DNA from: Myxococcaceae bacterium
GTDB lineage: Bacteria > Myxococcota > Myxococcia > Myxococcales > Myxococcaceae
Length of the DNA stretch: 64,000 bases
Reading direction: 5' to 3'
Assembly: GCA_019686135.1 (NCBI GenBank)
Contig: JADGHL010000004.1
Coordinates: forward strand, 1-64,000
The notes beneath the pieces are model-generated. The model was not told the origin of the DNA and did no database searches. It saw nothing but the letters and a program-made list of their open reading frames with translations. Of this stretch, positions 29,461 to 43,842 are shown in pieces; the stretch's first letter is position 1, and each line of letters begins with the position of its first letter. A program made the translations under genes and the position numbers.

Positions 29461-30003
29461 ATGCCCGATCAACTCGAGTTCGCGCGCAGCATCGAAGGAA
29501 CGTTTCTCAAGGGCCTCGGCCCGGACCTCACCCCCGAAGTCAAGGACAAGCTCCGTGCGGCGGGGCTCGATCTCGACCGCACGCTGCTGCCGGCCTACCC
29601 GGCGGAGGAGTTCCACCGGTGGGTGCGGCTAGCGGCCGCCGAGGTCTTTCCGGACGTGCCGGAGGAAGAGGCCTGCCGCCACATCGGGTTCCGCACCATC
29701 GCCGGGCTCGAGGACACGGTGATCGGCCGCGCGCTCGCGGCGGGGCTGAAGCTGATGGGTCCGAAGCGCAGCCTGCAGCGGCTCGACCGGATCTTCCGCA
29801 ACAACAACAACTACCAGCAGGCCACGCTCACCGAGCTCGGCGAACGATCGGTTCGCGTCGGGCTCAGCAACGTCTTCGAGCTGCCCAGCTTCTACCAGGG
29901 CGTGTTCGAGGCGGCGATGAAGGTGACCGGCGCGAAGCAGCCGCGCGTCACCGTGGTCGACGCCACGCCGCCGGGCGTGGTGTTCCAGGTCGAGTGGGAC
30001 TGA
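29461..30003 (+). CDS. DUF2378 family protein (myxobacterial)
   Basis: The 180-residue cytoplasmic protein matches the DUF2378 family known almost only from myxobacteria: EGTFLKGLGPDLTPEVKDKL, LPAYPAEEFHRWVRLAAAEV, FRTIAGLEDTVIGRALAAG, and a C-terminal strand region PRVTVVDATPPGVVFQVEW. Family members are about 180-200 residues, so it is complete. Biochemical function is unknown. It precedes the oxoamine synthase fusion by 53 nt on the same strand and may be co-expressed with it. Confidence 0.9.
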   Translation: MPDQLEFARSIEGTFLKGLGPDLTPEVKDKLRAAGLDLDRTLLPAYPAEEFHRWVRLAAAEVFPDVPEEEACRHIGFRTIAGLEDTVIGRALAAGLKLMGPKRSLQRLDRIFRNNNNYQQATLTELGERSVRVGLSNVFELPSFYQGVFEAAMKVTGAKQPRVTVVDATPPGVVFQVEWD

Positions 30004-30056
30004 CACTCCCGACGTCCTCCGCAACTCCGCTCGCACACCATCGAAGGGGACCCGAC

Positions 30057-32567
30057 ATGGAGGCTTCCGAGTTTCTTGCGACCATCCACGAGGTGTTCAC
30101 CACCGGGCGCCAGAACGGCGCCATGTTCCAGGACGCCGAGGACCGGCCGGCGGACGGAAAGCACATCATCCTGGATGGCGAGGAGCTGCTGACCTTCGGG
30201 TCGTGCTGCTATCTCGGGCTCGAGACGGACCCGCGTCTGAAGGAGGGCGTCATCCGCGCGGTCGAGCGGTACGGGACGCAGTTCTCCACCTCGCGCGGCT
30301 ACGTCTCCACGCCGCTGTACTCGCAGGTCGAAGAACACCTCTCCGAGCTGTTTGGCGGACCGGCGCTCGCGCTGCCCACCACGACGCTGGGCCACATCGC
30401 GGCGATCCCGGTGCTGGTGAACGAGAAGGACGCCATCATCCTCGACCACCAGGTGCACGCCTCGGTGCAGACCGGCGCCACCCAGGCGCGGGCGGGTGGC
30501 GCGACGGTGGAGGTCATCCGCCACGGCGACGTGGGCAGCCTCGAGGAGCGCGCGGAGGCGCTCACCCGGACGAAGCGCCACGTCTGGCACATGATCGACG
30601 GCGTCTACAGCATGTTCGGCGATCTCCCCGACGTCGATCTGCTCACGCGCCTGCTCAACCGCTACGAGCAGTTCCACGTCTACGTGGACGACGCGCACGG
30701 GATGAGCGTGGACGGCAAGCACGGCCGCGGCGTGCACCTGGCCCGCATGCCGCACCACCCGCGGATGATTTTCGCCACCTCGCTCAACAAGGCGTTCGCC
30801 GCCGGCGGCGGGTGCATGGTGTTCCCCACCGACGAGCTGCGCCAGAAGGTCCGGATGTGCGGCGCCCCGCTGACGTTCGGCGGTCCGCTGCAGCCGCCGA
30901 TGCTCGGGGCGATCCTCGCGAGCGCGAAGATCCACCTCTCGTCGGAGATCGAAACGCTGAAGGCGGAGCTGCGCACCCGGGTGGAGTTCCTCAACAGGCA
31001 ACTGCTCCAGCGGGAGCTGCCGCTGCTGGCGCACAACCACGCGCCGATCTTCTTCTTGCGCACGGGTCCGCTTCGGCTGGCGTGGAACGTCGCGCGAAGG
31101 ATGCGCCGCCGCGGCATCTACGTGAACGTGGCCGCGTACCCGACCGTGCCGATGAAGCGCTCGGGCATCCGCCTCTCGGTCACTCGCCACCACAGCCTCG
31201 AGGACATAGAACGGCTGGTGAACGCGCTCGCCGAGGAGTGGCCCCTGGCGCTGAACGAGGAGGGGCTCACCCAGGACGAGGTCGACCGCAACTTCATCAA
31301 CGACTTCGAGGACGCGCAGAAGCGGCGGCTGCGCGAGCTGTTCGGCAAGGTGGAGGGCGGCAACGGCCGCAAGCCGGCGAGCGCGCGGACCCGCGGCCCC
31401 TGGGCGGTGCCGACCGGGCTGGAGCTGCAGCACGTGACGTCGATCGACGATCTCGACGCGGACGAGTGGGACCGGCTGCTCGGCGACCGCGGCACCTTCG
31501 CCGTCTCTGCGCTCAGGATGCTGGAGCGGACGTTCCGCGACCGCCCCGAGCCGGAGAACAACTGGCTCTTCCACTACTTCGTCGTCCGCCACGACGGCCG
31601 GCCGATCGCCGCCACCTTCTTCACCGAGGCGCTGTGGAAGGACGACATGCTGATGCGCAGCGAGGTCTCGCGCCGCGTGGAGGCGCACCGCCGGAGCGAT
31701 CCTTACTTCCTCACCTCGAAGATGCTGGCGATGGGGTCGTTGCTCTCCGAGGGCAACCACCTCTTCCTCGACCGCACCGGCCGCTGGAAGGAGGCGCTGG
31801 CCTGGATCCTCGACGAGGCGAGCCGCATCGTTCAGCAGCGCGAGCTCTCCGCACTGGTGGTGCGCGATCTGCCGGACGGCGATCCCGAGCTGGACGCGTT
31901 CCTGCTCGACGCCGGCCTCGTCAAGGTGCCGATGCTCACGTCCTTCGAGCTGGCGGTGGATCGCTGGAACACCGACCAGGAGTACCTGGCGCTCCTCGGC
32001 CGCAGCGCGCGGAAGGCGATGCGCGAGGAGGTGCTGGAGCGCGAACGGGACTGGCGGTTCCGGCTGCTCGGCGTCGGCTACGAACAGCCGACGCCGGAGG
32101 AGCTGGCGCACTTGCACCGGCTGTACCTGAACGTGAAGGCGCGCAAGGTGCGGTTGAACACGTTCGATCTGCCGGACACCGTGCTCAGGGAGATGTGCCG
32201 GACGCCGGGCTGGGAGATCGTGGCGCTGCACCTGCCGGTGGAGCGCGGTGGCCCCGCGGATGGGCGCGCGGTGGGCTTCGTCGCCGGGTTCAAGGGGACC
32301 GGGAAGCGCTACACCGGGATGGTGTGCGGGATCGACTACGACTACCAGAAGAAGCACGTCTACCGGCAGATCCTCTGGCAGACGATTCGCCGCGCGCGGT
32401 TCCACGGATGCACGTCGCTCGCGTTGGGCGTGGACGCCGACTTCGAGAAGCAGCGGCTCGGCGCGCGCGCCCAGGGGCAGTGCGTGTATCTTCAGGCGAC
32501 CGACCACTTCGGCGGCGCGGTGATGCAGCAGATCGTCCACGAGGAGGCGCTCAAGGCCTCCGCCTGA
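30057..32567 (+). CDS. Alpha-oxoamine synthase fused to GNAT/FemAB-like acyltransferase
   Basis: The 836-residue protein joins two enzymes. Residues 1-410 are a PLP-dependent alpha-oxoamine synthase of the serine palmitoyltransferase/KBL/BioF group: GSCCYLGLETDPRLKEG, STSRGYVSTPLYSQVEEHLS, HMIDGVYSMFGDLPD, VYVDDAHGMSVDGKHGRG, and the Schiff-base lysine in FATSLNKAFAAGGG. Residues 440-836 are an acyl-CoA N-acyltransferase-like region (FHYFVVRHDGRPIAATFFTE, LDRTGRWKEALAWILDEASR, FVAGFKGTGKRYTGMVCGID). The two steps, amino acid plus acyl-CoA condensation then N-acylation, are those of bacterial ceramide synthesis, where Spt and bCerS are usually separate proteins. The lipid product is inference; the fusion is directly visible in one uninterrupted frame. 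Confidence 0.88.
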   Translation: MEASEFLATIHEVFTTGRQNGAMFQDAEDRPADGKHIILDGEELLTFGSCCYLGLETDPRLKEGVIRAVERYGTQFSTSRGYVSTPLYSQVEEHLSELFGGPALALPTTTLGHIAAIPVLVNEKDAIILDHQVHASVQTGATQARAGGATVEVIRHGDVGSLEERAEALTRTKRHVWHMIDGVYSMFGDLPDVDLLTRLLNRYEQFHVYVDDAHGMSVDGKHGRGVHLARMPHHPRMIFATSLNKAFAAGGGCMVFPTDELRQKVRMCGAPLTFGGPLQPPMLGAILASAKIHLSSEIETLKAELRTRVEFLNRQLLQRELPLLAHNHAPIFFLRTGPLRLAWNVARRMRRRGIYVNVAAYPTVPMKRSGIRLSVTRHHSLEDIERLVNALAEEWPLALNEEGLTQDEVDRNFINDFEDAQKRRLRELFGKVEGGNGRKPASARTRGPWAVPTGLELQHVTSIDDLDADEWDRLLGDRGTFAVSALRMLERTFRDRPEPENNWLFHYFVVRHDGRPIAATFFTEALWKDDMLMRSEVSRRVEAHRRSDPYFLTSKMLAMGSLLSEGNHLFLDRTGRWKEALAWILDEASRIVQQRELSALVVRDLPDGDPELDAFLLDAGLVKVPMLTSFELAVDRWNTDQEYLALLGRSARKAMREEVLERERDWRFRLLGVGYEQPTPEELAHLHRLYLNVKARKVRLNTFDLPDTVLREMCRTPGWEIVALHLPVERGGPADGRAVGFVAGFKGTGKRYTGMVCGIDYDYQKKHVYRQILWQTIRRARFHGCTSLALGVDADFEKQRLGARAQGQCVYLQATDHFGGAVMQQIVHEEALKASA

Positions 32568-42483: not shown

Positions 42484-43110
42484 ATGTCGACGTCCCGGAA
42501 GACGATCGTCCTTTTCGCGGTCGCGTCCTTCGCGTTCGTGGCGGATCAAGGGACGAAGCACCTGGCAGTGGCGCACCTGACCACCGCGCTCGAGGGCCGC
42601 GAGGGCATCGGCGATCGCTTCGTGGGCTTCCTCACCGAGACGAACCTCGAGGGTCGGCGCGCTCGCGGGGACGCGGTCGTGATCGACGGCTACTGGGATC
42701 ACCGCTACGTGCAGAACCCCGGGGCCGCCTGGGGCCTGTTCTCGTCGCTGCCGGAACAGATCCGCACCGGCTTCTTCCTCGCCATCACCCTGGTGGCCAT
42801 CGTCGCCATCGTCTGGATGTATCGCCGCCTCGACGTCGACCGGTGGTGGATGCAGAGCGCGCTCGCGCTGGTGCTGGGCGGCGCGGTGGGGAACTTCGTC
42901 GACCGCGCGCTGCGCGGCTATGTCATCGACTTCATCGACTGGCACTGGCGCAACGTGCCCGGGATGCACTGGCCCACCTTCAACGTGGCGGACGCGGCGA
43001 TCTCGATCGGCGTGGCGATGATGCTGCTCGACGCTGCGTTCGGTCGCAGGAAGAGGAACCGCGCGAAGGAGCCGGCCGCCGTGCCGCTCGAGGACGCGCT
43101 CCGCGCGTGA
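42484..43110 (+). CDS. lspA: Lipoprotein signal peptidase II, first copy
   Basis: The 208-residue aspartic protease has four membrane helices. Motifs: VADQGTKHLAVAHL, NPGAAWGLFSSLPE, GGAVGNFVDRALRGYVIDFI (first catalytic Asp) and WPTFNVADAAISIGVAMM (second catalytic Asp). It cleaves signal peptides from diacylglyceryl prolipoproteins. An insert of about 45 residues between helix 1 and the NPG motif makes it longer than E. coli LspA (164 residues). A second copy follows 135 nt downstream. Confidence 0.93.
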   Translation: MSTSRKTIVLFAVASFAFVADQGTKHLAVAHLTTALEGREGIGDRFVGFLTETNLEGRRARGDAVVIDGYWDHRYVQNPGAAWGLFSSLPEQIRTGFFLAITLVAIVAIVWMYRRLDVDRWWMQSALALVLGGAVGNFVDRALRGYVIDFIDWHWRNVPGMHWPTFNVADAAISIGVAMMLLDAAFGRRKRNRAKEPAAVPLEDALRA

Positions 43111-43245
43111 TTGCGCCACTGGACCGCGCGCCCATCCGGTAGCGTGACTTCGACGGCGTCACCGACGTCGCCAACGGCGAGTCTGCGTCCTGCTGCCTCG
43201 AATGGATGAAGTACTGACCTGGGCACAATCCGCTATAAGCCGCGC

Positions 43246-43842
43246 GTGCCTCGTCGCTATCTCCTCTTCATCGTCCTCAGCGTCGGCGTCGTCCTGCTGG
43301 ACCAGTGGACCAAGTACTTCGCAGTCGACGCGCTCACCGTCCGTTTCGACGGGAAGGAGAGCGCCGGCGCCGAGCTGAAAGCGCTCTACGCCGCACCCCC
43401 GCCGGAGGGACTGGGCGGCTATCACTTCACGCCGCGAGGAAAGGTGGAGGTGATTCCCGGGCTGCTCCGCTTTCGCTATGCGGAGAACCCCGGCGCCGCG
43501 TGGGGGCTGTTCCGCGGCCTGCCGCCGGGCATCCGCGGACCGCTGTTCCATGTCATCAGCATCGGCGCGGTCATCCTCATCGTCTGGTACTTCCGGAAGC
43601 TCAGCGGTGCGCGGAGCGAGGCATGGGCGATCGTCGGCCTGCCGCTGGTCCTGGCCGGCGCCGTGGGGAACTACATTGACCGGATCGCCCGGGCGTTCGT
43701 CATCGACTTCATCGAAGCGCACTGGTTCGACAAGGCGTACTGGCCGTCCTTCAACGTCGCGGACATGGCGATCTGCGTCGGTGTCGCGTGCCTGGTCATC
43801 GACGCGTTCGTGCGGCGCGAGAAGAAGCCGAAGGCCGCATAG
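43246..43842 (+). CDS. lspA: Lipoprotein signal peptidase II, second copy
   Basis: The GTG start gives 198 residues with four membrane helices. Motifs: LLDQWTKYFAVDAL, ENPGAAWGLFRGLPPG, AGAVGNYIDRIARAFVIDFI and WPSFNVADMAICVGVACL carry both catalytic aspartates. Like its neighbour it has an insert of about 50 residues after helix 1, here containing YAAPPPEGLGGYHFTPRGK. The shared insert shows the two arose by tandem duplication in this lineage. Divergence suggests they may serve different lipoprotein sets. Confidence 0.93.
   Translation: MPRRYLLFIVLSVGVVLLDQWTKYFAVDALTVRFDGKESAGAELKALYAAPPPEGLGGYHFTPRGKVEVIPGLLRFRYAENPGAAWGLFRGLPPGIRGPLFHVISIGAVILIVWYFRKLSGARSEAWAIVGLPLVLAGAVGNYIDRIARAFVIDFIEAHWFDKAYWPSFNVADMAICVGVACLVIDAFVRREKKPKAA

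Follow-up and report, generated by a model that had tools for sequence, protein, structure and literature searches.

Formation of an alpha-aminoketone by an alpha-oxoamine synthase (AOS) and its N-acylation are steps usually divided between two enzymes. A familiar pair is Spt, an AOS, and bCerS (CC_1154 type), a GNAT-type protein of ∼390 amino acids that acts on the AOS product. GNAT-class and AOS domains do occur in one chain in the saxitoxin synthase SxtA; as SxtA is described, its domain order is different from that of the protein reported here, it carries extra domains, and its GNAT-like domain acts on an acyl-ACP starter. In the sphingolipid-forming system PfSgaAB a non-canonical AOS serves a sphingolipid product, its partner being a polyketide synthase and not a GNAT (PMC12134224). 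Alb29, the AOS of the albogrisin pathway of Streptomyces albogriseolus (PDB 8I7U, 8XHA), is a stand-alone enzyme without an acyltransferase domain, which forms aminoketones from L-glutamate and acyl-CoAs (PMC11906848). The members of the PRK07505 subfamily (NF005697) that we met are likewise stand-alone, and the model for this subfamily is titled 'hypothetical protein'. In the openly licensed literature we found no published description of an AOS–GNAT or SPT–acyltransferase fusion, and this domain combination is apparently undescribed so far.

The window, that is the whole 64,000-nucleotide stretch of DNA that was analysed, contains such a fusion as a single frame on the forward strand, in a 5.5 Mb Myxococcota assembly in which the gene is single-copy. 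The features discussed below are as follows.

29461–30003, forward strand: DUF2378 gene, 180 amino acids, with a predicted H-NOX fold lacking the heme-ligating His (family match, model, orthologues beside fusions)
30043–30050, forward strand: ribosome-binding-like GAAGGGGA before the fusion start (sequence)
30057–32567, forward strand: AOS–FemAB-like GNAT fusion gene, 836 amino acids (frame, Pfam, full-length orthologues)
30057–31256, forward strand: N-terminal AOS domain, residues 1–400, PRK07505/Alb29-type (Aminotran_1_2, NF005697 at 257 bits, fold, tree)
30789–30791, forward strand: codon of Lys245, the predicted PLP Schiff-base lysine, in the motif TSLNK (alignment with SPT, BioF and Alb29)
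31257–31409, forward strand: inter-domain linker, residues 401–451 (AlphaFold2 pLDDT)
31410–32564, forward strand: C-terminal FemAB-like/Acetyltransf_6 acyltransferase domain, residues 452–836 (Pfam; homologous stand-alone GNATs encoded next to an AOS)

The coding score of the frame ranks among the highest in the window, as given by a simple gene-caller trained on the compared loci, and the GAAGGGGA motif ends 6 bases upstream of its ATG; a scan of the locus for promoters and terminators gave nothing above chance level. The preliminary description had read the frame as a PLP domain joined to a GNAT-like domain, and this was borne out, with both domains above their Pfam cut-offs: Aminotran_1_2 matches residues 48–391 with 84 bits (cut-off 19.7), and Acetyltransf_6 (PF13480) matches residues 655–797 with 40.3 bits (gathering cut-off 22). 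The full-length AlphaFold2 model is of moderate confidence (mean pLDDT 68), and residues 415–448 of the linker, where pLDDT falls below 50, are probably flexible.

Full-length orthologues were found in six further genomes among 195 Myxococcota, at 54% (G155), 52% (G070), 49% (G099), 48% (G100), 46% (G101) and 43% (G157) identity. The locus L004 was not counted as a further genome, its contig having the same length (131799 bases) as G070:C21. Because the fused frame recurs in all six without stops, the fusion is real and is neither an artefact nor a chance juxtaposition; the same frame in seven genomes rules out an assembly chimera. It is nevertheless rare and patchy in Myxococcota. The two halves can exist separately, since an additional genome, G041, carries the AOS half alone as a 399-amino-acid gene of 46% identity. 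None of the plasmid records covers 80% of the fusion query. A different AOS fusion was seen on a Streptomyces plasmid (L140:1034-5071), where a protein of 1345 amino acids is annotated as SDR oxidoreductase plus PLP aminotransferase.

The AOS half combines fold type I with the PLP lysine, the Asp and His contacts to PLP, the stacking His and the carboxylate-binding Arg that mark this family, and H134, D211, H214, K245 (in TSLNK) and R372 are in register in the alignment. The preliminary description took these residues as the complete key set of serine palmitoyltransferase; they are indeed present, but they are common to the whole AOS family and hence do not point to SPT. A fold search with the whole fusion model, in which only the AOS half was covered, gave Z 35 to the AOS structures ThAOS and Alb29, a comparison that identifies the AOS fold without resolving its subfamilies.

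Profiles and phylogeny were more discriminating. The top NCBIfam profile for the AOS half is PRK07505, with 256.9 bits (under its curated cut-off of 342), followed at a distance by BioF with 167 bits. None of the SPT equivalog profiles was passed (139.8, 133.6 and 95.7 bits against cut-offs of 500, 640 and 670 respectively), nor was NF005526, the profile for CqsA/LqsA-type autoinducer synthases (79.9 bits against 428). In a tree of 29 AOS sequences (LG+C20+F+G4), a branch with 100/100 support separates the fusions, the G041 gene and PRK07505/Alb29 from SPT, BioF, KBL, ALAS and ThAOS, the fusions forming their own sister group beside PRK07505/Alb29. Constraining fusions and SPTs to one clade made the tree 89 log units worse (p-AU 4.7e-90). 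The SPT-like placement suggested earlier was thus not upheld: the PLP domain lies outside SPT, and equally outside KBL, BioF and ALAS. BioF was also rejected as the identity of the fusion, the BioF of this genome being encoded in a bioF-bioA-bioD-like cluster on contig C95.

The nearest relative of known activity is Alb29, which shares with the fusions the AOS fold, the side of the 100/100 branch and the motifs SYLGL(D/E) and TSLNK, while being only ∼23–28% identical. In ThAOS amino-acid choice is tied to the residue that precedes the conserved Arg (PMC11906848). In the fusions this gate residue is Ser or Thr, and it does not settle the amino-acid substrate, because Ser/Thr at this position is common to SPT, AONS and ALAS. 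Separately, PRK07505-type AOS genes were observed in a conserved, peptide-like cluster together with an ATP-grasp-like gene, a gene for a 460-amino-acid protein and a lantibiotic-dehydratase-N-like gene (L042:8922-15922, L043:2056-9728, L044:493-10193).

The C-terminal half would adopt a GNAT-type fold, as judged from its Pfam similarity to the FemAB-like/Acetyltransf_6 group; a profile search of solved structures with this domain returned nothing significant. In being GNAT-type, and in its length of ∼390 residues, it resembles bCerS, and the preliminary description had likened the two. Sequence relation is, however, undetectable by profile: comparison with 27 bCerS-type sequences, a reference set chosen by synteny and not from the Caulobacter sequence itself, gave an hhalign probability of 0.6%. 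The domain is homologous along its whole length to stand-alone myxobacterial GNATs recovered by a search of the phylum (hhalign 99.8%, E 8e-30), which differ in being separate genes and are 22–28% identical to it. In 8 of the 13 loci examined, such a relative and an AOS gene are ∼2.5 kb apart and flank a gene for a fatty-acid hydroxylase. The strongest argument that the C-terminal domain would N-acylate AOS products is that its closest relatives adjoin AOS genes. The AOS partners of these relatives fall on the SPT/BioF/KBL side of the tree, which means that this GNAT family came to be paired with AOS enzymes repeatedly or that the pairs were reshuffled. To our knowledge no stand-alone protein of the family has been assayed for activity.

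These myxobacterial clusters merit a description of their own. An AOS, a fatty-acid hydroxylase and one or two FemAB-like GNATs are encoded together at L074:4204-10209 and also in L070, L071, L072, L076, L077, L078 and L082; the hydroxylase is fused to a FemAB-like domain in L070–L072, and a formyltransferase-like gene is present in some of the clusters. They are candidates for an unusual lipid pathway.

We favour, with a probability of roughly 0.55, the view that the fusion gene encodes a two-step enzyme making an N-acyl-alpha-aminoketone. In the first step the PLP domain, to judge by its fold, clade and residues, would join an L-amino acid to an acyl thioester in a decarboxylative condensation that yields an alpha-aminoketone. 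In the second, the C-terminal FemAB-like GNAT domain would move a second acyl group to the new amine; transfer of an aminoacyl group instead is a less likely variant. The fusion would in this way couple the two reactions, and might hand the reactive aminoketone onward before its dimerization or loss. Consecutive AOS and acyltransferase steps with channelling had been proposed from the start; the two-domain arrangement agrees with this and channelling is possible, but the identification of the intermediate as ketosphinganine and of the product as ceramide has not stood.

Some FemAB-type GNATs are aminoacyl transferases that depend on tRNA. The fusion could accordingly be imagined as a tRNA-dependent, non-lipid natural-product enzyme, in which the FemAB-like domain adds an amino acid to the aminoketone to give a peptidyl-ketone. 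The Pfam similarity of the C-terminal domain is consistent with this, as are a Streptomyces cluster in which a distant homologue adjoins an ATP-grasp gene and the presence of PRK07505-type AOS genes in peptide-like clusters. The company kept by the closest relatives of the domain, a fatty-acid hydroxylase and an AOS, looks instead like lipid synthesis, and we regard the tRNA-dependent route as very unlikely.

The preliminary description had read the gene as a candidate one-protein ceramide pathway, in which an SPT domain and a ceramide synthase domain deliver 3-keto-ceramide to a CerR reductase. The combination of AOS chemistry and N-acylation within one chain would suit such a pathway, as would the gate residue shared with SPT. 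Apart from the tree, the profile scores and the C-terminal domain, what counts against it is the content of the genome. The search for a CerR-type reductase that had been advised did yield a CerR-like epimerase gene, away from the fusion on contig C62, where an SPT-type AOS, a GNAT, an NAD-dependent epimerase-like reductase and a second GNAT are encoded in one run on one strand. The C62 AOS scores 521 bits with the SPT profile SerpalmtaseCFB (under its cut-off of 640), far above the fusion, and its best PDB match is the Sphingobacterium SPT (408 bits). On a Roseomonas plasmid a GNAT of the C62 type lies beside LptF/LptG, lipid-kinase and nucleotidyltransferase genes, an arrangement resembling the Caulobacter CC_1161–CC_1152 region, and on a Streptomyces plasmid AOS, GNAT and epimerase genes are consecutive. 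On this synteny we take the C62 GNAT family to be of bCerS type, and synteny and profiles together suggest that the C62 run is a separate spt-bCerS-cerR-like operon.

Of 193 Myxococcota, 143 have genes of this bCerS type, and all genomes with a fusion are among them (the match in G157 is weak); the fusion itself occurs in seven genomes. Because of the separate C62 operon and the presence of the bCerS-type family in every fusion genome, the fusion is most likely an extra enzyme and not the ceramide pathway of the cell. No CerR-type reductase was recognized among the fusion neighbours examined, part of which were annotated; co-location of CerR with the other pathway genes is, on the other hand, not required in all sphingolipid producers. 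A fusion of SPT with bCerS is rejected by the tree, the profiles and the C62 operon. To the ceramide reading we give little credence; it keeps a small probability, since SPT activity has been demonstrated for at least one AOS, PfSgaB, that does not belong to the canonical pathway (PMC12134224). AOS–GNAT pairs should not be named ceramide synthases on motifs alone.

Returning to the two-step N-acyl-alpha-aminoketone enzyme, its neighbours may bear on the use of the product. The co-oriented DUF2378 gene (166 bits, Pfam) ends 53 bases before the fusion and probably shares its transcript. DUF2378 genes adjoin the fusion in three genomes (G000, G070 and G155), and the homologues closest to that of the window are themselves fusion-adjacent, at 59% identity in G070 (among 17 matches) and 47% in G155 (among 12). 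This agrees with the earlier proposal of a lineage-specific partner and places the fusion in a small module together with a protein family specific to myxobacteria. No DUF2378 was found in G157 or G041.

The model of the DUF2378 protein (pLDDT 93) superimposes on the H-NOX structure 1U4H with Z 14.9 and 2.8 Å over 166 residues, the next fold being that of TRAPP subunits (Z 10.7). The window protein has no His past residue 74 to act as proximal heme ligand, and the 12 sequences compared contain neither a conserved His nor the YxSxR motif. DUF2378 is thus predicted to have an H-NOX-like fold without heme features, a likeness that does not establish function. Speculatively, the protein may bind the product or intermediate of the fusion as a carrier or sensor, and other DUF2378 copies might be small-molecule-binding proteins too. 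With the predicted fold, this large orphan family gains a hypothesis that can be tested.

A sensor beside a synthase recalls CqsA/CqsS and LqsA/LqsS, and the fusion might be a signal synthase whose diffusible aminoketone or acyl-aminoketone is sensed by DUF2378 or by a neighbouring kinase. The predicted fold of DUF2378 is of a ligand-pocket type, and exposure to the quinolone signal HHQ raised the expression of a DUF2378 gene in two myxobacteria (PMC9257966). Co-oriented PAS hybrid histidine kinase genes lie directly before the fusion in G157 (∼40 bases) and after it in G099, G100 and G101, and a PAS-containing hybrid kinase is encoded nearby in G155. This adjacency is only suggestive because kinases are abundant in myxobacteria; moreover, the fusion-adjacent kinases are only ∼26–37% identical between lineages, no kinase gene is directly beside the fusion of the window, and the CqsA-type profile is far from being passed. 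We consider a signal synthase rather unlikely. The more specific idea, that N-acyl-alpha-aminoketones are a new class of myxobacterial signal bound by the heme-less H-NOX-fold DUF2378 or by an operon-encoded hybrid kinase, is an improbable one; if it held, the numerous DUF2378 proteins, described as exclusive to myxobacteria, would constitute a family of small-molecule receptors.

A further neighbour is a secreted protein of ∼400 amino acids, with a signal-peptide-like start and no Pfam match, which in G070 precedes DUF2378 and the fusion on one strand. Of 189 Myxococcota genomes only three were found to carry its gene (G070, G155 and G041), and in each it lies beside an AOS of the fusion type (L004:6071-7285, L034:6884-8035, L039:10843-11811); a profile search of solved structures with the protein gave nothing significant. 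Elsewhere in the window, at 42484–43842, two similar short genes resembling signal peptidase II (lspA) lie in tandem, with an ileS-like gene ∼5 kb upstream of them.
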